A stretch of 64,000 nucleotides of DNA from Anaerofustis stercorihominis (lineage in GTDB: Bacteria; Bacillota; Clostridia; Eubacteriales; Anaerofustaceae): NCBI RefSeq assembly GCF_005844425.1, contig NZ_SPHL01000001.1, positions 1 through 64,000 on the forward strand. The letters are read 5' to 3'. Below are positions 46,149-58,825 of this stretch, piece after piece. The stretch's first letter is position 1. Every line of letters begins with the position of its first letter. The notes under the pieces are model-generated. The model saw only the letters and a list, made by a program, of their open reading frames with translations. It had not been told where the DNA came from and ran no database searches. The position numbers were made by a program, and so were the translations under genes.

Positions 46149-46718
46149 CTACATAATGTTATATTTTATTAAAATATCTTTAGCTACCAAGTATCTGCTT
46201 ACTCTTTCATTCATTGCTTGTTTTTCTATATATTTATGTGCCTGTTCTTCATTAAGCTTTTCATTTTCCATTAAAATAAGTTTTGCTCTATCAACAATTT
46301 TAATTTCTTCTATTTTGTTTCTTAACTTTTCATTCTCTTTTTTAAGATTTAAAAGTCTGTTTTTAAGTGCCATTTGCATTTTAAAAGCTTGATAAAACAT
46401 AGGCTTTATAATTGGTTTTTGAAGTACAAAAACCCCTGCAAATTCAACATCAGCGCTTATTTGTTCAACAATTTCGCTTTTTACCATTAAAATTGTTCCT
46501 ATATTGAGCCTTGCAAAATCAAGGCTAAGTTGAGTTCCTGTTTCTTCTTTTAAAGGAGTATTTATAATTGCAACAGCTACTTCGTTGTTTGTTACATATC
46601 TTCTTGCCTTTGAAGCAGAGGATGTCGTGATTATTTGAACATTATGATATTCTTTTAATAGTTGACATAAAGTATCTTTTGCTTTTTCGCTATATGAAAC
46701 TATCAATACTTTATCCAA
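46149..46718 (-). CDS. ANTAR-domain RNA-binding antiterminator (NitR-like)
   Basis: 189 aa. The start is a TTG at 46718, 5 bases after a perfect GGAGGTG; an upstream TTG lies on that site. Residues 1-120 have the response-regulator fold, but the phospho-acceptor position is Asn53 (AIINTPL) and the acidic pair after the first strand is Ser8-Tyr9, so phosphorylation is unlikely; the lysine near 106 (LQKPI) is kept. A coiled-coil linker leads to the ANTAR domain VDRAKLILMENEKLNEEQAHKYIEKQAMNE-type, residues 140-182. It is the last gene after glnA, and ANTAR-type hairpins precede three transcripts of this block. Confidence 0.87.
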   Translation of the reverse strand: MDKVLIVSYSEKAKDTLCQLLKEYHNVQIITTSSASKARRYVTNNEVAVAIINTPLKEETGTQLSLDFARLNIGTILMVKSEIVEQISADVEFAGVFVLQKPIIKPMFYQAFKMQMALKNRLLNLKKENEKLRNKIEEIKIVDRAKLILMENEKLNEEQAHKYIEKQAMNERVSRYLVAKDILIKYNIM

Positions 46719-46748
46719 ATAATCACCTCCCAATGATATATACTTTTT

Positions 46749-48044
46749 TTACTCAGTTAAAAAATATTTAAGTTCCTGAATGTCTTCGTCTATTTGTAAA
46801 TCTTTTTTTCTTTTATTAACAAAGTTGTATACAAGATTTTCTCCAAGACATTCTTTTACGAATATACTGTTTTCAAAAACGCCAAGTGCTAAACTAAAAT
46901 TATCTGCAAGATTATCAAAATTTTCTATTTTTGTATCTTGGGTAAAATATTTCAAATTAGCATTTTCGTTTAATTCTTCTTTTTTCTTAATACCCTCTAA
47001 TCCTGCATTGATTACAAGAGCAAAAGCCAAGTAAGGATTAGCCGTAGGGTCAAGACTTCTTAATGTAATCTTGCTTCTTTTTTCAATATAGTCTGTTATT
47101 TTAATAAGAGTATTAGGGTTCTTCTTTGACCAAGTAATTGATTTTGGCGCATAAAATTCCCCAAATCTTTTATATGAGTTTCTTGTTGGATTTAAAATTG
47201 CGGTTATTTCTTTTATTCTGTTCATGATTCCTGCAATAAAATATTTTGCATCTTTAGAATCTTCAAGTCCTTTTGATAAAATATTTTCATTGTCTTTAAA
47301 TACAAGAAGATTAAGATGAAGCCCGCTGCCTGATAATTCTTTTAGAGGTTTAGGCATGAAAGTAGCATATCCGCCGTTTTTATTTGCAATTGCTTTTACA
47401 ATCCATTTGAATGTAACAAAATCATCTGCAGCAAGCAAGGCTTCGGAGTTTCTAAATATTATTCTGTTTTGTCCAGGGCCTCTTTCATGATGAGAACTTA
47501 TAGGAGTTATTCCCATTTCTTCAAGAGTAAGGCAAATTTCTCTTCTGATATTTTCTCCCTTGTCAACAGGGGAGATATCAAAATATCCTGCTTCATCATA
47601 AGGCATTAAAGTAGGCTGTCCTTCGTCGTCTGTTTTGAAAATATAAAATTCGCATTCAGTACCTACTTTTATTGTATATCCCATTTCCTTTGCTTTGTTA
47701 ACTGCTTTTGTAAGAATTCTTCTTGAGTCATTTTCAAAATTTTCTCCATTTGGATACTTTACATCACAAAAGAATCTTGCAACCCTTCCTTCCGATGGTC
47801 TCCAAGGAAGAATTGATAAAGTAGTCGGATCCGGAAATAAAAGTAAAGTATTGTTTTTTTCGTTTGAAAATCCGTCTATGGCAAATCCGTCAAAGGCTAT
47901 TCCGTTTTCAAAAGCATTTTGCAGTTCATCTGACATTATAGCTATATTTTTTTGAATGCCGAACACATCACAAAATGCAAGTCTAATGAATTTAATGTCG
48001 TTTTCTTTAACGAAATTGATGACTTCCTTTGTAATATTATTCAT
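46749..48044 (-). CDS. glnA: Glutamine synthetase, type I
   Basis: 431 aa. Makes glutamine from glutamate, ammonia and ATP as a dodecamer. RLAFCDVFGIQKNIAIM near 21, GFAIDGFSNEKNNTLLLFPDP, the glutamate/metal motif KVGTECEFYIF near 122, SHHERGPGQNRIIFRNSEAL near 185, and LRSLDPTANPYLAFALV near 320. No adenylylation-site sequence is evident, as in Gram-positive GSI-alpha. It is 8 bases after the GltB C-terminal-domain gene and before the ANTAR gene. In other Gram-positive bacteria, feedback-inhibited GlnA passes the nitrogen signal to regulators directly. Confidence 0.95.
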   Translation of the reverse strand: MNNITKEVINFVKENDIKFIRLAFCDVFGIQKNIAIMSDELQNAFENGIAFDGFAIDGFSNEKNNTLLLFPDPTTLSILPWRPSEGRVARFFCDVKYPNGENFENDSRRILTKAVNKAKEMGYTIKVGTECEFYIFKTDDEGQPTLMPYDEAGYFDISPVDKGENIRREICLTLEEMGITPISSHHERGPGQNRIIFRNSEALLAADDFVTFKWIVKAIANKNGGYATFMPKPLKELSGSGLHLNLLVFKDNENILSKGLEDSKDAKYFIAGIMNRIKEITAILNPTRNSYKRFGEFYAPKSITWSKKNPNTLIKITDYIEKRSKITLRSLDPTANPYLAFALVINAGLEGIKKKEELNENANLKYFTQDTKIENFDNLADNFSLALGVFENSIFVKECLGENLVYNFVNKRKKDLQIDEDIQELKYFLTE

Positions 48045-48052
48045 ATACCCTC

Positions 48053-48784
48053 CTAATGATTAGTATATAATTGTTTGTATGGACTTTTTGTGTTTGGAAT
48101 TATAATATAAAATTTACTTTCTATAATATTATCATAATCTTTATTAAAATAATTACAATATTTTTTTATATTATCTTTTATTTCCTCTAAATCTTCTTTT
48201 TCTGCTTCTTTAACGATAAGTTTATCACCTTCAAATACAGGTGGGTTATTTGTTCTAAGATAAATTTTACCCCCATGCATTCCCGTTGCACAGAAATTAC
48301 CCATTGGAATTTCTTTATCTTCATATCCCAATCCTAATATAACGATATTTCCGCCTGCTTGGTATTCACCAAGGAATGAGCCTGTTTTCCCTCCAACGAT
48401 TATGGCTGGTTTTTTGTCTTTATAGGCTTTCATATGGATACCTGCTCTGTATCCTACATCACCTTCAACAAATATTGTACCACCACGCATTGCATATCCT
48501 GTCGCATCTCCGCTTGAACCGTGAATTATAATTTCACCGTCATTCATTGTATCACCTGTCGCATCTTGTGCATTTTCATTTATGGTGATTTGTGCACCGT
48601 CAAGATATGCGCCTACTGCATTTCCAGGTACTCCGTTTATTGTAAGATTAACTTTAGACATACCTGCACCTATAAATCTTTGTCCCATTACATCATCAAT
48701 AGTTATGTCTAAATCTTTTAAAGCACAAGCTTTAATCTGTTCGTTTATTTGTCTGTGTTCAAGTCCTTTTGCCCCAAATCTCAT
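48053..48784 (-). CDS. Glutamate synthase C-terminal (GXGXG) domain protein
   Basis: 243 aa. A right-handed beta-helix with repeated Gly motifs (GQRFIGAGMSK, GAYLDGAQITINENAQDATG, GDATGYAMRGGTIFVEGDVGYRAG, IVGGKTGSFLGEYQAGG) equal to the C-terminal domain of the large glutamate synthase subunit, here a free protein. It helps shape the ammonia channel and complex. It overlaps the oxidoreductase gene by 4 bases. This split layout is known from methanogens and Clostridia. Confidence 0.88.
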   Translation of the reverse strand: MRFGAKGLEHRQINEQIKACALKDLDITIDDVMGQRFIGAGMSKVNLTINGVPGNAVGAYLDGAQITINENAQDATGDTMNDGEIIIHGSSGDATGYAMRGGTIFVEGDVGYRAGIHMKAYKDKKPAIIVGGKTGSFLGEYQAGGNIVILGLGYEDKEIPMGNFCATGMHGGKIYLRTNNPPVFEGDKLIVKEAEKEDLEEIKDNIKKYCNYFNKDYDNIIESKFYIIIPNTKSPYKQLYTNH

Positions 48785-50016
48785 AACTTTTTACCTCCAA
48801 GCTTAGAGTCTCTGTAATCTCTTGAAAATGCCATAAGTCCCGGATTATCTTTAACTAAATCAAAATCTATGTCATTTAGATTAATTTTTTCTCTTATTAA
48901 ATAAGTATATATTCCGGCTTTATCTACATCTCCTATGATAATGAAACCTTTAAGAAGATTATTTTTATATACAAGTTTCTTATATTCATTTTCATTTTCT
49001 ACTATATATTCTTCACCGTCGTAGTTTCCTGCTGTTACCATATGAAGACCAAATAATCCAAGAGAATTCATCGGCATTGCATTTTTATAGGATTTTTCTC
49101 CTCCTGCCATGTTTACTCCTGCTGTTTCGCCTTTAAAGTAAGCATTTGGAAGAAGTGCAAGGATGATATTTTGATCTCTTGTAATATCATAACTTTCAGT
49201 ACAGTCTCCTGCAGCATAAACATCTTTAATTGTCGTCATACCATGTTCATCGGTTATAATACCTCTGTTTACTTCACATCCTATTTCCTTTGCTAAGTTT
49301 ACGTTTGGTCTTACACCTACCGCAACTACGAATATATCATAATCAAGCTTTGAACCATCTTTTAGGGTAGCTTGTTTTTCATCAATTTTATCAATACTGT
49401 TACCAAGTATAAATTTAACACCTTGGTTTTCAATATGTTTTTGGACCAGTTTGCATCCTTTTTCATCAAGAATACTTGGTAAAATTCTATCGGCAAGGTC
49501 AACAACGGTAACATTTTTAACTTTATTGTTAATTGCTTCCGCACATTTAAGACCGATAAGTCCTGCACCTAAAATTAATACTTTACTGTCTTTTGTAATT
49601 GCTTTTTTAAGATTTAACGCATCATCCAAAGACATAAAAGTAAATTTGTTTTCTACCTTTTCTTCTCCTTCAATGTGAGGTGTAAAAGGGGAAGAGCCGG
49701 TTGCAATCATTAGTTTTTTGAAAGGGATGTTTCTTTTATTATTAAGGACGATACATTTATTTTCATAATCGATTTTTTCCGCCTTAACCCCTTTTATCAC
49801 TTCCACATTGTTTTTTATATAAAAATCATCTTCTCTATATCTCATTTTTTCCAAAGTTGTCTTTCCTTCAACAAGATAAGATATCAAAGGTCTTGAATAG
49901 ATAAAATGATTTTCATCCGTAACTAAAGTTATATCACCTGTTTTATCAACACTTCTTATTCCTTCTATTGTTCCAATGGCGGCAATAGAACCGCCGATAA
50001 TTACATATTTACTCAT
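48781..50016 (-). CDS. NAD(P)/FAD-dependent oxidoreductase of the glutamate synthase operon
   Basis: 411 aa, pyridine nucleotide-disulfide oxidoreductase fold. FAD site YVIIGGSIAAIGTIEGIRSVD at the start, NAD site VLILGAGLIGLKCAEAINNK near 144, and IKDVYAAGDCTESYDITRDQ near 263. It resembles nitrite-reductase/rubredoxin-reductase type subunits. In this cluster it probably delivers electrons from NAD(P)H to the ferredoxin components. It lies 2 bases after the ferredoxin gene. Confidence 0.87.
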   Translation of the reverse strand: MSKYVIIGGSIAAIGTIEGIRSVDKTGDITLVTDENHFIYSRPLISYLVEGKTTLEKMRYREDDFYIKNNVEVIKGVKAEKIDYENKCIVLNNKRNIPFKKLMIATGSSPFTPHIEGEEKVENKFTFMSLDDALNLKKAITKDSKVLILGAGLIGLKCAEAINNKVKNVTVVDLADRILPSILDEKGCKLVQKHIENQGVKFILGNSIDKIDEKQATLKDGSKLDYDIFVVAVGVRPNVNLAKEIGCEVNRGIITDEHGMTTIKDVYAAGDCTESYDITRDQNIILALLPNAYFKGETAGVNMAGGEKSYKNAMPMNSLGLFGLHMVTAGNYDGEEYIVENENEYKKLVYKNNLLKGFIIIGDVDKAGIYTYLIREKINLNDIDFDLVKDNPGLMAFSRDYRDSKLGGKKL

Positions 50017-50018
50017 AA

Positions 50019-50453
50019 TTAACCCCTTTCCTCGAAAACAATGGCATTATTTGGACATCCTTTAACACAGTTAGGTTCTCCAAAAGAATTGTTTGTACAA
50101 AATTCACATTTGTTTACAACACTGTTTTCTTCATCGGGATGAATTGCACCGTAAGGACAAACTAAAACGCATGTCAAACATCCGATACATTTTTCTTTAT
50201 CTACACTGATAAGTCCGTCTTTTATTGATAAAGCACCACTTATACAGCTTTTTACGCATATTGGTTCTTCGCAGTGTCTGCAAGATACAGCAAAGTGAAT
50301 TTGATCTTTATCTTCAACTCTTATATTAGGATAGATTTTCTTTCCTTTAAGAGCTTTTATCATATTGTCTTCTTTACTGTTTGCAAACGCACAGTTATAT
50401 TCACATAGGTGACATCCAAGGCACCACTTTTCGTTGACGTAAATTCTTTTCAT
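50019..50453 (-). CDS. 4Fe-4S dicluster ferredoxin subunit
   Basis: 144 aa with many cysteines grouped as CLGCHLCEYNC (near 12), CRHCEEPICVKSC (near 57), CIGCLTCVLVCPYGAI (near 88) and CEFCTN...CVKGCP (near 116): four 4Fe-4S motifs of the HycB/HydN type. Electron transfer subunit linking the oxidoreductase to the glutamate synthase core. Spacing is 2-3 bases on each side. Confidence 0.9.
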   Translation of the reverse strand: MKRIYVNEKWCLGCHLCEYNCAFANSKEDNMIKALKGKKIYPNIRVEDKDQIHFAVSCRHCEEPICVKSCISGALSIKDGLISVDKEKCIGCLTCVLVCPYGAIHPDEENSVVNKCEFCTNNSFGEPNCVKGCPNNAIVFEERG

Positions 50454-50456
50454 ATT

Positions 50457-51962
50457 TTATTCTCCTGCATGCTTTATTCCTAGTATTTCAAGTTCTTTTT
50501 CGTTAAGACCTACACCTCTTAACATTAATCTGTTTCCTTTTAGGGCTTCTATTGAGTTTATTCCCATACCGCCCATCATTTCTTTTATTTCATGTTCCCA
50601 AGCGGTTACAAGGTTTACTACTCTTTTATATCCAATATCAGGATTTAATCTTTTTACAAGGTCTGGTCTTTGAGTTGCAATACCCCAGTTGCATTTTCCG
50701 CTGTGGCAGTTTCTGCATAAGTGGCAGCCAAGAGCCATTAATGCTGAAGTTGCGATATAAACACAGTCGGCACCAAGGGCAATTGCTTTTACTACATCTG
50801 CACTGCTTCTTATACTTCCGCCAACTACAAGAGAAACATTATCTCTTATGCCTTCACTTCTAAGTCTTGAATCAACACTTGCAAGGGCAAGTTCAATCGG
50901 AATACCTACGTTATCCCTAATTCTTGTTGGAGCTGCTCCCGTTCCTCCTCTAAAACCGTCTATTGCAATTATATCTGCACCGCTTCTTGCGATACCGCTT
51001 GCAATTGCGGCAACGTTATGTACTGCGGCAATTTTTACGATAACTGGTTTTTTATATCCGGTTGCTTCTTTTAAAGAAAGAACAAGCTGTCTTAAATCTT
51101 CAATTGAATAAATATCATGATGAGGAGCGGGGCTTATTGCGTCGCTTCCTTCAGGAATCATTCTTGTTTTTGAAATATCAGGTCCGATTTTTTCTCCCGG
51201 TAAATGTCCTCCAATACCGGGTTTAGCACCTTGTCCCATTTTTATTTCAATAGCCGCTGATGTATCAAGATAATCTTTATGTACACCAAATCTACCTGAT
51301 GCAACTTGAACTATTGTATTTTTTCCATATTTATAAAAATCTTCGTGAAGACCACCTTCACCGGTGTTATACATTATTCCAAGTTCACTTGCTGCTCTTG
51401 CTAAACTTTCATGAGCATTGTAACTTATTGATCCGTAAGACATTGCAGAGAACATTATTGGAACGTTTAATTTGATTTGAGGAGGAGTGTTTGGAACAAT
51501 ATTTCCTTTATCATCTCTTTCAATTTTTACATTTTTCTTTCCTAAGCTTACTTTTGTTTCCATTGGCTCTCTTAGGGGGTCAATAGATGGGTTTGTTACT
51601 TGAGATGCGTTTATAAGCATTTTATCAAAGTAAATAGGGTACTCTTTAGGATTTCCCATTGATGCAAGAAGCACTCCACCGCTGTCAGCTTGACGGTAAA
51701 TGTTTTCTATATGTTCAGCTTTCCAACTTGCATGAGGTTTAAAAGTATGATCGCTTTCAACGATTTTTAAAGCTTTTGTAGGGCATAGAGATACACATCT
51801 ATGACATGCAACGCAGTTTGTTTCGTCACTTAACATAAGTTTGCTGTCTTCGTCATAAAAATGTACTTCATTTGCACATTGTCTTTCGCATACTCTGCAC
51901 TGTATACATCTGTCTTGATTTCTTACCACTTCAAACTGTGGATGTATAAAATTAATTCCCAT
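50457..51962 (-). CDS. Glutamate synthase FMN/Fe-S domain subunit with N-terminal ferredoxin domain
   Basis: 501 aa. Two 4Fe-4S motifs at the N-terminus (CIQCRVCERQC near 18, CVACHRCVSLCP near 47), then the GltB-like FMN barrel: PIMFSAMSYGSISYNAHESLARAA near 170, TGEGG, KMGQGAKPGIGGHLPGEKI near 240, IAIDGFRGGTGAAPT near 330, and a Cys set CHLCRNCHSGKCNWGI near 412. Carries out reductive 2-oxoglutarate amination. It begins two bases from the amidotransferase gene. Confidence 0.93.
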   Translation of the reverse strand: MGINFIHPQFEVVRNQDRCIQCRVCERQCANEVHFYDEDSKLMLSDETNCVACHRCVSLCPTKALKIVESDHTFKPHASWKAEHIENIYRQADSGGVLLASMGNPKEYPIYFDKMLINASQVTNPSIDPLREPMETKVSLGKKNVKIERDDKGNIVPNTPPQIKLNVPIMFSAMSYGSISYNAHESLARAASELGIMYNTGEGGLHEDFYKYGKNTIVQVASGRFGVHKDYLDTSAAIEIKMGQGAKPGIGGHLPGEKIGPDISKTRMIPEGSDAISPAPHHDIYSIEDLRQLVLSLKEATGYKKPVIVKIAAVHNVAAIASGIARSGADIIAIDGFRGGTGAAPTRIRDNVGIPIELALASVDSRLRSEGIRDNVSLVVGGSIRSSADVVKAIALGADCVYIATSALMALGCHLCRNCHSGKCNWGIATQRPDLVKRLNPDIGYKRVVNLVTAWEHEIKEMMGGMGINSIEALKGNRLMLRGVGLNEKELEILGIKHAGE

Positions 51963-51963
51963 C

Positions 51964-53070
51964 TTATTCTACCCCCTTGTTTAATGTAACTATTACAGGT
52001 TCACCACCGGCAGGTGAGTAAATTTTATCTACTTGTTTTTGTATTATTTTTATTGCACTTTCTTCACTTGCCATATATACACTTTCTCCTTTTTCGGCAA
52101 CAACCATTGAACGAAGTTTTAATCTGTCGTTAAGAGCCATAAGTCCTCCGTTAAAGCCTAAGATAATAGAGAAAGGACCTGTAATAAGTAGACTTGAAAA
52201 CATAGTTCTTAAATATGAAAGTCTTTCTTTTTCTTTTTCGTCTTTTGTTTTTATTGTTTCCCAGAAAGGAGCAGCAACAACTTCAGCTGCTTCTTTTAAT
52301 GTAAGTTTATTTTTTCTAAGCAAATAATCCATCATATATGTAATTACTTCTGTATCTGTTAGAAGATTACATTTATATCCAAACATTTCAATATATCTTC
52401 TGTTTGCATCATAAGAAGATATTTCACCGTTATGAACTATTGAGTAGTCAAGAAGACTAAAAGGATGGGCACCACCCCACCAGCCGGGAGTGTTGGTAGG
52501 GTATCTGCCGTGTGCTGTCCATGAATACGCTTTGTATTCATCTAGTTTATAAAATTCGCCTACATCTTCCGGATAACCTACTGCTTTAAAAGAACCCATG
52601 TTTTTGCCGCATGAGAATACATAGCAGCCTTGCATATTTGTATTTATATTCATAACGCATTCAACTACAAATTCTTTTTCGTCTAATTGAGAAGATTTTA
52701 GTTTAGATTCTTTTGGTAATACAAAATATCTATATATTAAAGGTTCGTTTGTGATTTTATCGATTTTTCTGGTTGGAATGATTCCTTGTTCGATAATATC
52801 AAAATGAGTATCTAAAAAAGCTTCACATTCTTTTCTTACAATATTGTCATCATAAAAAACATGAAAAGCATAATAATTTTTATATTCCGGATATATTCCG
52901 TAAGCAGCAAAACCTCCGCCAAGCCCGTTGCTTCTTTCGTGCATTACTTCAATTGATGTTATTATGTCTCTTCCGTCGGTTCTTTTCCCGTCTTTGTGAA
53001 AAATACCGCTTATGGCACATCCTGAAGGTATTCTTACATTTCCTTCTTTGTATCTTTCGTCAAATATCAT
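51964..53070 (-). CDS. Glutamate synthase class II glutamine amidotransferase subunit
   Basis: 368 aa from ATG at 53070 after GGGGGTG; a longer frame would start inside the attenuator. Class II enzymes need an N-terminal Cys: here Cys18 in RIPSGCAISGIF follows a short propeptide to be cleaved. Other amidotransferase marks: GGGFAAYGIYPEY, HGRYPTNTPGWWGGAHPF, VHNGEIS and LTDTEVITYMMDYLL. It hydrolyses glutamine and channels ammonia to the FMN subunit. First gene of the seven-gene operon, with an attenuator in its leader. Confidence 0.9.
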   Translation of the reverse strand: MIFDERYKEGNVRIPSGCAISGIFHKDGKRTDGRDIITSIEVMHERSNGLGGGFAAYGIYPEYKNYYAFHVFYDDNIVRKECEAFLDTHFDIIEQGIIPTRKIDKITNEPLIYRYFVLPKESKLKSSQLDEKEFVVECVMNINTNMQGCYVFSCGKNMGSFKAVGYPEDVGEFYKLDEYKAYSWTAHGRYPTNTPGWWGGAHPFSLLDYSIVHNGEISSYDANRRYIEMFGYKCNLLTDTEVITYMMDYLLRKNKLTLKEAAEVVAAPFWETIKTKDEKEKERLSYLRTMFSSLLITGPFSIILGFNGGLMALNDRLKLRSMVVAEKGESVYMASEESAIKIIQKQVDKIYSPAGGEPVIVTLNKGVE

Positions 53071-53082
53071 TTTTACACCCCC

Positions 53083-53141
53083 AAAAAATAAAGCGCCCAA
53101 TAAGCACATAAAAATAAAGTACTTATTGGACGCCGTTGTCC
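53083..53141 (-). promoter_or_regulatory. Attenuator of the glutamate synthase operon: ANTAR-type hexaloop overlapping a terminator
   Basis: On the minus strand, GGAC-AACGGC-GTCC (53141 down to 53128) forms a small hairpin with a six-base loop, A first and G fourth. Its 3' half is also the start of a 15-bp terminator stem (53119-53133 with 53093-53107) followed by TTTATTTTTT. Only one of the two can form. Ends 13 bases before the GGGGGTG ribosome site. Confidence 0.8.
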
Positions 53142-53163
53142 TTAATATTTAGTTAGTGTTATA

Positions 53164-53192
53164 AGTATAAACATAAAATTATAAAAATGCAA
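53164..53192 (-). promoter_or_regulatory. Promoter of the glutamate synthase operon
   Basis: Minus strand TTGCAT (53187-53192), 17 bp, TATACT (53164-53169); about 15-20 transcribed bases before the hexaloop hairpin. Confidence 0.65.
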
Positions 53193-53249
53193 GAGAAATT
53201 TGTATTTTTTTTGAATTTTCTAAAAATTTAAAAAATTAAAAAAAATAAC

Positions 53250-53278
53250 TTGACAAAAATAAATCCTCGTAGTAAAAT
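53250..53278 (+). promoter_or_regulatory. glnN promoter
   Basis: TTGACA, 17 bp, TAAAAT. The start site would fall near 53285, just before the hexaloop hairpin. Confidence 0.7.
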
Positions 53279-53289
53279 CCATTCATACA

Positions 53290-53335
53290 CAGCAAAGGCG
53301 CTGTAAGCAAAATGCTTACGGTGCCTTTTTGTTTT
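53290..53335 (+). promoter_or_regulatory. glnN attenuator: ANTAR-type hexaloop overlapping a terminator
   Basis: CAGC-AAAGGC-GCTG (53290-53303), six-base loop with A first and G fourth. It overlaps the terminator AGGCGC-T-GTAAGC / GCTTAC-G-GTGCCT (53296-53326) followed by TTTTTG. Mutually exclusive folds, same plan as the leaders of the glutamate synthase operon and amt. Confidence 0.8.
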
Positions 53336-53468
53336 TAATAAGGCTCTTGTTAGATGAAATAATTATTAAATTTATAGTAGAAACCTAAAAGAAAAAATTG
53401 TATAATTATTTTATATGCAAAACTTATTAAGGTAGATACAAAATTAAACATGAAAGGATGTAAAAATT

Positions 53469-55553
53469 ATGAGCGGAATACCCGAATTATTTGGCAGCAA
53501 GGTTTTTAATGACAAAACTATGCAAGAAAAATTACCGAAGGATACATATAAAAAATTAAAAGAAACAATAGAACAGGGAAAAAGACTTGATATAAGCATT
53601 GCGAATGAGGTTGCACACGCAATGAAAGAATGGGCACTTGAAAATGGTTGTACACATTATACTCATTGGTTCCAACCAATGACAAGTTTAACAGCTGAAA
53701 AACATGATGCATTTATCGAACCTGACGGAGATAATGTTGTTTTACGTTTGTCAGGTAAAGATTTACTACAAGCAGAACCTGATGCTTCATCTTTCCCATC
53801 AGGCGGACTTAGAGCAACAAACGAAGCAAGAGGATATACTGTTTGGGATCCTACAAGTTATGCTTTTATTAAAGATAATACTTTATGCATTCCTGCAATT
53901 TTCTGTTCTTACAATGGTGAAGTTCTTGATAAAAAAGCTCCACTACTTAAATCTATTGAAGCAATCAGTAATCAAACAAAAAGATTATTAAAACTTCTTG
54001 GAAAAGAATGCAGCGGTGCTAATACATCAGTTGGGGCAGAACAAGAATACTTTATTATTTCAGAAGAAATGTATAAGAAAAGACCTGACCTTATCTATAC
54101 AGGAAGAACATTATTCGGTTCACCTTCTCCAAAAGGTCAAGAACTTGATGACCATTACTTTGGTTCAATAAAAGCACAAATTTTAGAATATATGGAAGAT
54201 TTGGATAAAAGCCTTTGGGAATTTGGTATTACCGCAAAGACAAGACATAACGAAGTTGCCCCTGCGCAACATGAGCTTGCACCTGTATATTCATCAACAA
54301 ATACAGCAACAGACCAAAACCAAGTTATGATGGAAATGATGAAAAAAATTGCAAGAAAACACGGGCTTGTATGTCTTCTTCATGAAAAACCATTTGAAGG
54401 CATAAACGGAAGCGGTAAACATAATAACTGGTCTATCACAACAAAAGAAGGAGAAAATTTATTATCTCCGGGAAACGACCCTAAACAAAACATGCAGTTC
54501 TTATTAGTTCTTGCAGCAGTTGTAAAAGCAGTTGACGAACATCAAGATTTACTTAGAATTTCTGTAGCAAGTGCAGGTAATGACCATAGACTTGGTGCAA
54601 ACGAAGCTCCCCCTGCAATTATCTCTATATTCCTTGGAGATGACTTAAAAGGTGTAGTTGATGCAATTATTTCAGATAATGATTATAAGAGCGAAGGAAA
54701 AACAAAATTCTCATTAGGTGCTACTGTAATTCCTGATTTAACAAAAGATACAACAGACAGAAACAGAACATCACCTTTCGCATTTACAGGTAACAAATTT
54801 GAATTTAGAATGGTTGGCTCAAAAGACTCTGTTGCTTGTCCTAACATGATTTTAAATACAATTGTTGCAGATGCATTTAGTGAATTTGCAGATAAATTAG
54901 AAAAAGATAATTCAGAAGAAGCAATCAAAGCTTTAATTAAAGAAACATTTACTGCTCATCAAAGAATTATTTTCAACGGAGACGGATATTCTGATGAATG
55001 GGTTGAAGAAGCTGCTAAGAGAAATCTTTTAAATTTAAAAACAAGTGCAGAAGCAATTCCTTATTACAGAAAGGAAAACAATGTAAAATTATTTGAAAAA
55101 CATAAAGTTCTTTCTAAAGATGAACTTGAAAGCAGAACAGAAGTTTTACTTGAAGAATATGCAAATGTACTTTCAATTGAAGCAAAAGCTACCCTTGAAA
55201 TGGCAAAAGGTTCAATCCTTCCTGCTTGTATAGCTTATGTAAAAGAAGTTGCAGAAACATTACAAGTTAAAAAGGCAGTTTGTCCTTTAGCAAACAGTGA
55301 TGTTGAAGAAAAAACAGTTGTAAGAATAAGTGATTTAAATGCTAAACTATATAATTCAATTAACGTATTAGAAGAAGGTTTAAATGAAGCCGATAAAGTT
55401 GAAGATGCAGAACAAAGAGCAATGGCATTTAAGGAAAAAGTATTTGATAATATGGAAGAAGTAAGAAAATATGCAGACGAACTCGAAACAATTGTTGACA
55501 AAAAATACTGGCCATATCCTGCATATGGTGACATCTTATTTAGTGTTCAATAA
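53469..55553 (+). CDS. glnN: Glutamine synthetase, type III
   Basis: 694 aa, the normal GSIII length. N-terminal GSIII region with MSGIPELFGSKVFND, HWFQPMTSLTAEKHDAF near 65, FPSGGLRATNEARGYTVWDP near 107; core motifs VGAEQEYFII near 188, HNEVAPAQHELAPVYSSTNT near 259, GINGSGKHNNWSI near 317, and DRNRTSPFAFTGNKFEFRMVGS near 435. A second glutamine synthetase beside GlnA is common in anaerobes, often used under ammonia limitation. It is divergent from the glutamate synthase operon, with its own attenuator; amt follows. Confidence 0.96.
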   Translation: MSGIPELFGSKVFNDKTMQEKLPKDTYKKLKETIEQGKRLDISIANEVAHAMKEWALENGCTHYTHWFQPMTSLTAEKHDAFIEPDGDNVVLRLSGKDLLQAEPDASSFPSGGLRATNEARGYTVWDPTSYAFIKDNTLCIPAIFCSYNGEVLDKKAPLLKSIEAISNQTKRLLKLLGKECSGANTSVGAEQEYFIISEEMYKKRPDLIYTGRTLFGSPSPKGQELDDHYFGSIKAQILEYMEDLDKSLWEFGITAKTRHNEVAPAQHELAPVYSSTNTATDQNQVMMEMMKKIARKHGLVCLLHEKPFEGINGSGKHNNWSITTKEGENLLSPGNDPKQNMQFLLVLAAVVKAVDEHQDLLRISVASAGNDHRLGANEAPPAIISIFLGDDLKGVVDAIISDNDYKSEGKTKFSLGATVIPDLTKDTTDRNRTSPFAFTGNKFEFRMVGSKDSVACPNMILNTIVADAFSEFADKLEKDNSEEAIKALIKETFTAHQRIIFNGDGYSDEWVEEAAKRNLLNLKTSAEAIPYYRKENNVKLFEKHKVLSKDELESRTEVLLEEYANVLSIEAKATLEMAKGSILPACIAYVKEVAETLQVKKAVCPLANSDVEEKTVVRISDLNAKLYNSINVLEEGLNEADKVEDAEQRAMAFKEKVFDNMEEVRKYADELETIVDKKYWPYPAYGDILFSVQ

Positions 55554-55576
55554 GAATATAAATTAAATAAATCAAG

Positions 55577-55625
55577 GCACAAAGGCGTGTATGTAATCTT
55601 TATATTTACATACACGCCTTTTTAT
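55577..55625 (+). promoter_or_regulatory. amt attenuator: ANTAR-type hexaloop overlapping a terminator
   Basis: GCAC-AAAGGC-GTGT (55577-55590), same loop as glnN. It overlaps the 5' arm of a 14-bp perfect terminator stem AGGCGTGTATGTAA / TTACATACACGCCT (55583-55619) with a T-run. It serves as the glnN terminator by default, with read-through into amt when opened. Confidence 0.8.
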
Positions 55626-55652
55626 TTTATATATTTTAGGAGGAAAAGAAAA

Positions 55653-57395
55653 ATAGGAACAACATTTTCTGCTCTTGATACTATTTGGGTATTACTTGGA
55701 GCAATATTAGTATTTTGGATGCAAGCGGGGTTTGCAATAGTAGAGGGAGGTTTTACCAGAGCAAAAAATGCAGGTAACATTATTATGAAAAACTTAATGG
55801 ATTTTGTTCTTGGTACCATTATTTTCTGGGTACTTGGTTTTGGCATAATGATGGGTGATGATATTGGTGGAATTATAGGTAAAGTGGATTTCTTTATTAG
55901 AGGAAACTATGATAGTACTTTCCCTACAATGGCCTTTATTATTTTCCAAACTGTATTTTGCGCAACGGCTGCTACAATTGTATCCGGTGCAATGGCAGAA
56001 AGAACAAAGTTTATTGCATATTTAATTTACTCGGCTGTAATCAGTGCAGTTATTTATCCAATTTCAGGTCACTGGATTTGGGGTGGTGGTTGGTTAAGCC
56101 AACTAGGATTCCATGATTTTGCCGGTTCAACTGCGGTGCATATGGTAGGAGGAATATCTGCTTTGGTAGGTGCAAAGATTTTAGGAGCAAGACTTGGTAA
56201 GTATGATAAAAATGGAAAGAGTAAAGCTATTCCCGGACATAACATTGCTTTAGGCGCTCTTGGTGTATTCATCTTATGGATGGGTTGGTTTGGATTTAAC
56301 GGTTGTTCAACAGTTGCAATGTCAACAGATGCAGATATGGTTTCTGCGTCAACAATTTTCGTAACAACAAACATGGCAGCAGCAGCTGCTGCATTAATGA
56401 GTTTAATTGTTACTTGGGTTAGATACGGTAAACCTGATGTTTCAATGACTCTAAACGGAGCTTTAGCAGGACTTGTTGCTATTACGGCAGGTTGTGATAT
56501 GGTTTCTACTACAGGTGCTTTCTTTATTGGTGCAATCGCAGGTGTGCTTGTTTTATTTGCAGTTGAATTTATTGATCATAAATTAAAAATTGATGACCCT
56601 GTTGGTGCAATCGCAGTTCATGGATGCTGTGGTGCGACAGGAACACTTTTAACAGGTTTATTTGCAGTTGACGGCGGTTTGTTCTATGGTGGTGGAATTC
56701 ATATGTTCCTAACTCAACTTTTAGGTGTTGCGAGTGTAGCCGTTTATGTATTTATCGCAATGTTTATTGTATTTAAAATAATTGATAAAACAGTTGGTTT
56801 AAGAGCTAGTGAAGAGGAAGAAATCTTAGGTCTTGACATAACGGAACACGGACTTGTAAGTGCATATGCAGACTTTGCTCCTGCAGGAGATTTCTATTAT
56901 TCATTGGATGATGAAAGTGAAGTCCTTGGAATTGAAACACAACCTACAACAGCTAAAGAAGAAATAAAAGAAGTTGTACCTACTACTCAAACAACTCCGG
57001 TTGAAGATGATATTAAAGTTACAAGACTTGACAGCGGTATAAGTAAAGTTACTATAGTGATTAATAAAGATAAATTTGGAGCTTTAAAAGCCTCAATGCA
57101 AAAAATCGGAGTTACGGGTATGACAGTAACAAACGTTCTTGGATGTGGTGTTCAAAAAGGAAGAAAACATTTCTATCGTGGTAGTGAAGTAGAATCTATT
57201 TTACTTCCTAAATTAAAGGTAGAAATCGTAGTTGCGGCAGTTCCTGTAAGAACAGTAATTGAAGAAGCGAAAAAAGCTTTATATACAGGTAATATCGGAG
57301 ATGGTAAAATCTTTGTTTACGGACTTGACAATGTTGTTAAAATCAGAACAGGTGAAGAAGGCTTTGATGCTCTACAAGAACCAGAAGAAGAATAA
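55653..57395 (+). CDS. amt: Ammonium transporter Amt fused to a PII signalling domain
   Basis: 580 aa from the apparent start at 55653, an ATA codon 9 bases after a perfect AGGAGG; no ATG, GTG or TTG lies between that site and the conserved start GTTFSALDTIWVLLGA. A GTG at 55587 sits in the terminator stem and lacks a ribosome site. Residues 1-395 are an eleven-helix Amt channel (AGNIIMKNLMDF, SGHWIWGGGWL, DFAGSTAVHMVGG, HGCCGATGTLLTG). After a linker, residues about 470-575 are a PII (GlnK) domain with KGRKHFYRGSEV as T-loop region. The fused PII presumably gates the channel by 2-oxoglutarate and nucleotides. Confidence 0.92.
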   Translation: MGTTFSALDTIWVLLGAILVFWMQAGFAIVEGGFTRAKNAGNIIMKNLMDFVLGTIIFWVLGFGIMMGDDIGGIIGKVDFFIRGNYDSTFPTMAFIIFQTVFCATAATIVSGAMAERTKFIAYLIYSAVISAVIYPISGHWIWGGGWLSQLGFHDFAGSTAVHMVGGISALVGAKILGARLGKYDKNGKSKAIPGHNIALGALGVFILWMGWFGFNGCSTVAMSTDADMVSASTIFVTTNMAAAAAALMSLIVTWVRYGKPDVSMTLNGALAGLVAITAGCDMVSTTGAFFIGAIAGVLVLFAVEFIDHKLKIDDPVGAIAVHGCCGATGTLLTGLFAVDGGLFYGGGIHMFLTQLLGVASVAVYVFIAMFIVFKIIDKTVGLRASEEEEILGLDITEHGLVSAYADFAPAGDFYYSLDDESEVLGIETQPTTAKEEIKEVVPTTQTTPVEDDIKVTRLDSGISKVTIVINKDKFGALKASMQKIGVTGMTVTNVLGCGVQKGRKHFYRGSEVESILLPKLKVEIVVAAVPVRTVIEEAKKALYTGNIGDGKIFVYGLDNVVKIRTGEEGFDALQEPEEE

Positions 57396-57396
57396 T

Positions 57397-57430
57397 AAAA
57401 AGACTTGTACATTATGTACAAGTCTTTTTA
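57397..57430 (+). terminator. Terminator after amt
   Basis: 15-bp stem AAAAAGACTTGTACA / TGTACAAGTCTTTTT, three-base loop. Confidence 0.85.
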
Positions 57431-58740: not shown

Positions 58741-58825
58741 GGGGGAGTGCCCGAGTGGCTAAAGGGGGCGGACTGTAAATCCGTTGGCTCAGCCTACAAT
58801 GGTTCGAATCCATTCTCCCCCACCA
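58741..58825 (+). tRNA. tRNA-Tyr (GTA)
   Basis: 85 bases including an encoded CCA. Acceptor stem GGGGGAG pairs with CTCCCCC; D arm GCCCGAGTGGC; anticodon loop CTGTAAA with GTA at 58775-58777; a long variable arm (class II) TTGGCTCAGCCTACAA; T loop GGTTCGAATCC. Class II with GTA means tyrosine. It has its own promoter and terminator. Confidence 0.97.

Follow-up and report, generated by a model that had tools for sequence, protein, structure and literature searches.

A single hexaloop hairpin overlaps a terminator at three nitrogen-assimilation leaders

We analysed a 64,000-nucleotide window of the Anaerofustis stercorihominis genome (RefSeq assembly GCF_005844425.1, contig NZ_SPHL01000001.1, positions 1 to 64,000), in which positions 46149–57395 hold two divergent units: a minus-strand operon of seven genes (the glt operon), which ends in the gene for a NitR-like ANTAR regulator, and a plus-strand unit made up of glnN and amt. 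We consider it likely that this ANTAR protein controls a small ammonium-assimilation regulon through transcription antitermination, and that each of its sites consists of one hexaloop hairpin, with no upstream partner hairpin (P1). The elements of the three leaders are as follows.

53164–53192, minus strand: possible glt promoter, TTGCAT-17-TATACT (weak; our own reading, by way of the congeners)
53141–53128, minus strand: single hexaloop hairpin of the glt leader, GGAC-AACGGC-GTCC (scanner; covariance model 23.4 bits)
53092–53134, minus strand: intrinsic terminator overlapping the glt hairpin (18 counted pairs)
53250–53278, plus strand: glnN promoter-like site, TTGACA-17-TAAAAT (11 of 12 consensus matches)
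53289–53304, plus strand: single hexaloop hairpin of the glnN leader, ACAGC-AAAGGC-GCTGT (scanner; covariance model 24.9 bits)
53296–53326, plus strand: intrinsic terminator overlapping the glnN hairpin (14 counted pairs)
55577–55590, plus strand: single hexaloop hairpin at the glnN–amt junction, GCAC-AAAGGC-GTGT (scanner; covariance model 22.0 bits)
55583–55619, plus strand: intrinsic terminator overlapping the amt hairpin (14 counted pairs)

Direct reading of the sequence at all three leaders bore out the hairpins, loops and positions given in an initial annotation of this DNA, together with its claim that each hairpin shares its 3′ half with the 5′ arm of a terminator. The loops have the common form A-A-M-G-G-C, and because their second half, together with the 3′ arm of the hairpin, doubles as the 5′ arm of the terminator, a bound hairpin would exclude the terminator. 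The stem of the amt hairpin contains three Watson–Crick pairs and one G-U pair. All three leaders are far more stable than shuffled sequence (z of −6.0, −6.8 and −8.4 for glt, glnN and amt, respectively). No clear promoter was predicted in the amt leader, and the placement of the glt promoter is tentative, as both promoter scripts put it elsewhere, each differently, and TATACT is a third reading. In two congeners (L089, 19255–19420, and L091) the loop at the glnN–amt junction reads GAAGGC, with stem and terminator kept.

The genes of the two units are listed here, those of the glt operon in the order of their transcription.

51964–53070, minus strand: class II glutamine amidotransferase protein, first gene of the operon (Pfam; start by way of the congeners)
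50457–51962, minus strand: glutamate synthase core domain protein (Pfam)
50019–50453, minus strand: 4Fe-4S, ferredoxin-like protein of the glutamate synthase cluster (Pfam)
48781–50016, minus strand: pyridine nucleotide-disulphide oxidoreductase of the glutamate synthase cluster (Pfam)
48053–48784, minus strand: GXGXG domain protein of the glutamate synthase cluster (Pfam)
46749–48044, minus strand: glnA, glutamine synthetase (Pfam)
46149–46733, minus strand: NitR-like ANTAR regulator with pseudo-receiver, coiled coil and ANTAR domain (Pfam, AlphaFold2 model)
53469–55553, plus strand: glnN, type III glutamine synthetase (Pfam)
55653–57395, plus strand: amt, ammonium transporter with a fused C-terminal PII domain (Pfam; start by way of the congeners)

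Both this gene order and the Pfam domains (GATase_2, Glu_synthase, Fer4, pyridine redox, GXGXG, glutamine synthetase and ANTAR) agree with the seven-gene operon, ANTAR gene last, that had been annotated. The ANTAR gene is probably the last gene because an inverted repeat with T's after it lies 3′ of it, a repeat seen by eye that a consensus terminator scan does not list. The autoregulatory layout claimed earlier, with the ANTAR gene behind the same attenuator as the rest of its operon, is likewise what we see. The gene annotated as amt does encode a transporter, and is in fact an Amt–PII fusion.

ANNG hexaloops over terminators are enriched in the leaders of related loci

To test whether such sites exceed chance, we scanned the upstream regions of glnA, the glt operon, glnN and amt, 89 in all, across 88 sequences. 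The sample combined ANTAR loci of named genomes (the best 80 out of 125) with added relatives. Duplicate stretches (L001, L082–L084), gene matches starting far inside the protein, gene starts less than 150 nt from the end of a locus and glnA genes within a glt operon were left out. The scanner demanded a hexaloop of the form ANNG, at least four pairs and an overlapping terminator, so that pairing is 100% by construction. An ANNG hexaloop with an overlapping terminator was present in 26 of the 89 regions (glnN 13/21, glt 8/20, glnA 3/41, amt 2/7), whereas the 15 other letter pairs possible at loop positions 1 and 4 gave 0–4 sites each and dinucleotide shuffles of the same regions gave a mean of 0.85 sites (range 0–3, 20 runs). 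When whole loci were scanned, coding sequence included, A..G gave 40 matches against 5–23 for each of the 15 others, a smaller enrichment, which places the signal in the leaders. Neither the C-G pair that closes the loop nor the A at loop position 2 was demanded by the scanner, yet both are invariant in all 25 aligned sites (one of the 26, its 26 nt identical to another's, was dropped from the alignment).

These counts bear on whether the terminators are plain stops or constitutive attenuators, with hexaloops arising by chance from GGCGC-type arms. Strong terminators often start with GGC, and the hexaloop stems share their sequence, as such an origin would have it. The 5′ arm of the terminator, however, begins at loop position 3 or later, so that the first two loop positions, like the 5′ arm of the hairpin stem, lie outside the terminator as counted; the invariance of A2 and the rarity of other letter pairs at positions 1 and 4 also speak against chance, and we judge it highly improbable.

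A fourth site precedes amtB–glnK, and sites co-occur with the ANTAR gene

A profile search found a single ANTAR match in the A. stercorihominis genome. From 25 sites we derived a covariance model restricted to the hairpin and ran it against the genome at E values up to 10, the covariance search that the initial annotation had proposed. There were 11 matches, seven of which have no overlapping terminator according to the scanner. The strength of the search is that the other four, all with an overlapping terminator, all precede ammonium genes. The top-ranked match is a previously unseen site upstream of amtB–glnK on another contig, with a TTGACA/TATAAT-like sequence upstream, and the three sites of the window rank next; the identities of amtB and glnK are from Pfam, and the PII frame extends past the end of the locus. 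Both ammonium transporter genes found in the genome carry a site. The search thereby recovered the hexaloop–terminator arrangement, and the fourth target means that the circuit is not the self-contained, three-site one that had been described. That one protein serves all the sites fits the single ANTAR match, the position of all terminator-bearing sites found before ammonium genes and the mutually exclusive hairpin and terminator; what does not hold is its confinement to the window.

Terminator-overlapping sites at ammonium genes also track the presence of the ANTAR gene among 13 genomes of the family, of which seven are ANTAR-positive and six ANTAR-negative. With model matches at E values up to 1, such sites were found in five of the seven ANTAR-positive genomes (G000, G001, G002, G004 and G008) and in none of the six ANTAR-negative ones (21/1287 = 0.016, calculated by hand), a zero that was counted regardless of whether the ANTAR-negative genomes hold the target genes and that to this extent weakens the case. 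We used this comparison to weigh the idea that the pseudo-receiver protein is not the reader at all, the leaders answering instead to another RNA-binding protein, a small RNA or a metabolite while the ANTAR gene is a passenger. Site-like structures before other genes in two of the six ANTAR-negative genomes would suit this idea. The co-occurrence at the ammonium genes, however, argues against it, as do the fit of a hexaloop with G4 to the contacts of the ANTAR domain and an Rfam 15 scan of the window at gathering score, which returned a tRNA at 58741 alone and no riboswitch or attenuator family. We regard a different reader as very unlikely.

Of the two ANTAR-negative genomes with site-like structures, G011 (L162, ~1511 and ~1627) has tandem hexaloop–terminator units before an amidohydrolase-like open reading frame; in G012 (L161, ~1828) GAAC-AACGGC-GTTC overlaps a long terminator before a purF-like frame. 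Both names are our own interpretation of the translated frames.

Elsewhere in the order, an ANTAR match was found in 34 of 40 genomes. An extension of the hairpin model to these genomes was tried and rejected: among the 13 model matches examined (E up to 0.4, stricter filters), three have a scanner terminator (L185 and L186 weak, L193 strong) and two more have one by eye (both in G324), but none of the 13 loci outside the family matched the nitrogen proteins of the window. Since most of these genomes are ANTAR-positive and yet none of the matches examined lies beside these genes, the hexaloop layout seems confined to a subset of ANTAR lineages. A nitrogen-assimilation gene of the reference set is present within 5 kb of the ANTAR gene in 75 of 84 loci; the gene directly upstream is that for GlnA in 64 of the 84, for a GXGXG protein in four, for PII in one and for none of these in 15. 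Four Treponema-labelled records (L012, L018, L019 and L022) also have a NitR-like ANTAR gene beside glnA, with Asp kept at position 58 of the protein, and may reflect either transfer between phyla or mislabelled metagenome-assembled genomes.

The leaders appear to hold one hairpin instead of two

Deletion of P1 abolishes induction by EutV, and shortening or lengthening the linker between the two hairpins cripples it (PMC8934654, PMC3369931); NasR requires both hairpins for full affinity and binds one of them weakly. Measured against this dual-hexaloop arrangement, all four sites of the A. stercorihominis genome have P2, an A1/G4 hexaloop over a terminator, and P1 is absent. The comparison with EutV and NasR made in the initial annotation holds for the A1/G4 hexaloop, and overlooked both the two-hairpin targets of those proteins and the single hexaloops found here.

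No P1 candidate was found at the three sites of the window, and only two of the 26 sites have a P1-like hairpin in the 60 nt ahead of them, each time inside or upstream of the predicted promoter. In shuffled upstream sequence P1-like hairpins arise at 11% of sites, so that about three of 26 are expected by chance. A promoter-like site scoring at least 9 precedes 22 of the 26 sites, compared with 14% of shuffles, and with these predicted promoters the gap from the −10 box to the hairpin has a median of 11 nt (range 7–45). If transcription starts about 7 nt past the −10 box, as we assumed, most leaders leave some 0–18 nt ahead of the hairpin. From the −10 box to the hairpin, neither the glt leader (taking TATACT) nor the glnN leader contains a G, so that no ANNG loop is possible there. 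A second hexaloop downstream of the site was also considered and rejected, being present at two of 30 sites where 4.3 are expected.

We compared these leaders with 20 ANTAR loci from elsewhere in the phylum, picked from among the top Pfam scores (of 299 genomes, 148 had a match). Under a stricter consensus an upstream P1 candidate was found at one of 29 sites here and at seven of 20 sites in the phylum loci (Fisher p 0.005), and the gap from the −10 box to the hairpin was 7–36 nt at 26 promoter-called sites here versus 23–47 nt at nine phylum-locus sites. Double hairpins are plain in the phylum loci, indicating that the scanner detects double sites where they exist. All 20 of these loci (L122–L141) match nitrogen proteins of the window, and in some of them single and double attenuators are mixed.

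It follows from these counts how we weigh the alternative that the leaders are canonical dual-hexaloop attenuators whose upstream P1 is cryptic or degenerate, transcription starting further upstream than we assumed. Two hairpins are described for the dissected targets of EutV, NasR and AmiR, and pairs occur around other ANTAR genes of the phylum; but the P1-like hairpins are no more frequent than chance and lie outside the predicted transcripts, most leaders are too short ahead of the hairpin, the glt and glnN stretches lack G, and no downstream hexaloop takes the place of P1. We therefore regard a hidden second hairpin as unlikely. A 2022 paper on the structure of EutV with RNA asks why both hairpins should be necessary and calls for bioinformatic and experimental work on single hexaloops (PMC8934654); it was the sole open-access match for 'single hexaloop' together with ANTAR. 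We found no prior description of single-hexaloop attenuators in the open-access literature searched, which is a weak negative.

The regulator has a receiver domain that has lost its phospho-acceptor

The ANTAR domain of the regulator (PF03861) scores 58.7 bits against a cut-off of 27.3. Its AlphaFold2 model (predicted local distance difference test score 92.9) shows the receiver fold in full, together with a long helix and an ANTAR bundle; superposed on the RNA-bound EutV chain 6ww6_B, it matches over 188 residues (root-mean-square deviation 3.4 Å, Z 17.3). Receiver chains and EutV are among the 50 matches listed by VIA-align; AmiR (1qo0) and Rv1626 (1s8n) lie outside those 50, which is no evidence of a different fold. 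Among homologues, for which 82 of 87 rows were usable, all 82 retain the equivalents of EutV Lys149, Glu160 and Met172, the offset of +2 between the EutV numbering and that of A. stercorihominis being our own reading of the ungapped alignment.

At position 58, the phospho-acceptor place at the end of strand β3, the protein has Asn, as do 70 of the 82 homologues, with Asp in six and Ser in four. Positions 13 and 14, at the end of β1, are Ser13 and Tyr14, and an acidic residue occurs here in five of 87 rows (six rows have a gap). The receiver domain lacks both the phospho-acceptor Asp and the acidic pair of a response regulator, and its phosphorylation in the usual way is probably excluded. The loss of the Asp went unnoticed in the initial annotation. 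An intact receiver fold and the few homologues that keep Asp58 would be expected of an ordinary response regulator, phosphorylated by a histidine kinase as EutV is by EutW, but the prevalence of Asn58 and the scarcity of acidic residues at positions 13 and 14 make this decidedly unlikely. Because the phospho-acceptor is lost, a protein partner of the kind that AmiR has seems likelier than a kinase, and the regulator may be controlled by glutamine synthetase or PII. Glutamine synthetase would be the first candidate, since in Bacillus it controls a transcription factor by direct contact (PMC6316151), and PII the second.

Proposed mechanism and its relation to known systems

We propose that, when the ANTAR protein is absent, RNA polymerase would stop at the intrinsic terminator near the promoter or, in the case of amt, behind glnN. 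When active or free, the protein would capture the hexaloop hairpin, which folds first, as it leaves the polymerase, and the bound hairpin would block the terminator so that the genes are transcribed. Its targets would be the glutamate synthase–glnA–ANTAR operon, glnN, the glnN–amt junction and the second operon, amtB–glnK. Since the ANTAR gene sits behind an attenuator, the protein should amplify its own synthesis by positive feedback, and amt, should it lack a separate promoter, would be gated twice in series, by the glnN leader and then at the junction. That the leaders open under nitrogen limitation is suggested by analogy with NitR of Clostridium saccharobutylicum, which is reported to antiterminate glutamine synthetase/glutamate synthase (GS/GOGAT) genes under nitrogen limitation (2018 review PMC6316151, citing Stutz et al. 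2007).

Several points weigh against this reading. With EutV, induction is lost when P1 is deleted, and a single hexaloop might accordingly not work. There is no scanner site in 63 of the 89 upstream regions, 38 of the 41 glnA regions among them, and the four Ruminococcus flavefaciens glutamine synthetase leaders inspected by eye (L036, L064, L066 and L080) have none. The E values of the model in its own genome are weak (0.09–0.49), as the hairpin motif is short. The A1 of the amt loop is replaced by G in two congeners, site-like structures occur in ANTAR-negative genomes of the family, and the model matches examined in the rest of the order are not beside ammonium genes. In the protein, EutV Tyr164, which stacks on G4, is His in 82 of 82 homologues, and EutV Arg142 and Arg177 have no conserved equivalents, the positions being Ile144 and Ser179 in A. 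stercorihominis. The sites, their overlap with terminators, their conservation, the single ANTAR gene, the missing P1 and the lost phospho-acceptor are all read from sequence; binding, induction under nitrogen limitation, positive feedback and control by a protein partner are inferred.

The circuit itself is of a known kind, as antitermination of GS/GOGAT genes by NitR is already in print. Like NitR (C. saccharobutylicum, C. acetobutylicum), the A. stercorihominis regulator is encoded in a GS/GOGAT cluster, with attenuators before those genes, while the single hexaloops, glnN, the Amt–PII fusion, amtB–glnK and the lost phospho-acceptor are, as far as the accessible accounts of NitR go, features of A. 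stercorihominis. An ANTAR gene in the GS–GOGAT cluster of C. thermocellum (Clo1313_2030–2036) was compared with NitR in 2015 (PMC4676874). EutV/EutW of Enterococcus faecalis is similar in its receiver–ANTAR architecture, in the A1/G4 hexaloop over a terminator and in several key ANTAR residues, but EutV has two hairpins with natural linkers of 5–12 nt and phospho-Asp54, in contrast to one hairpin and no Asp here (PMC3369931, PMC8934654). The nearest precedent for the regulator is AmiR/AmiC of Pseudomonas aeruginosa, in which AmiR is likewise a pseudo-receiver ANTAR protein and has His where Tyr164 of EutV stacks on G4; the partner that regulates AmiR is AmiC (PMC8934654), whereas no such partner is among the Pfam matches of the A. 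stercorihominis operon. ANTAR attenuators were widely predicted in 2012 before nitrogen genes, among them the glutamate synthase of Desulfotomaculum, whose regulons resemble the present one in having attenuators before glutamate synthase and other nitrogen genes, and, across species, before glutamine synthetase, P-II and ammonium transporter genes (PMC3369931). That search probably misses single sites, as its model is a dual-hairpin motif. With domain and logic known, what appears to be new here is the single, mostly 5′-proximal hexaloop and a receiver that is probably not phosphorylatable as usual.

A bolder proposal, which we put forward tentatively and think somewhat less probable than its negation, is that an entire clade of ANTAR antiterminators uses a single hexaloop at the very 5′ end of the transcript and a permanently dimeric pseudo-receiver regulator. 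A metabolic partner would release this regulator, the most plausible ones being the glutamine synthetase encoded next to it and PII. If true, the two-hairpin rule drawn from EutV and NasR would not be general, and the circuit would be one of antitermination that senses an enzyme. Because the leaders look like natural single-hexaloop attenuators, mostly without room for a recruitment hairpin, the published question of why two hairpins should be necessary becomes testable in nature. The leaders also suggest a way in which nitrogen assimilation may be controlled at the RNA level in some anaerobic Clostridia, by a regulator that is probably not open to phosphorylation.

Start codons and the end of the amt gene

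The start of the amidotransferase gene was set at the ATG at 53070, which follows GGGGGTG, as the start given by the caller of open reading frames (53109) lies within the terminator. The ANTAR frame starts with TTG at 46733; by our own reading of the sequence a TTG at 46718, preceded by GGGAGGTGA, is the more likely start. The apparent start of the amt–PII gene is ATA (55653–55655) after AGGAGG, where two congeners have ATG; it could reflect use of an uncommon start codon, a mutation or an error in the assembly. Directly after amt, at 57396–57430, lies a bidirectional terminator-like repeat of 16 pairs.

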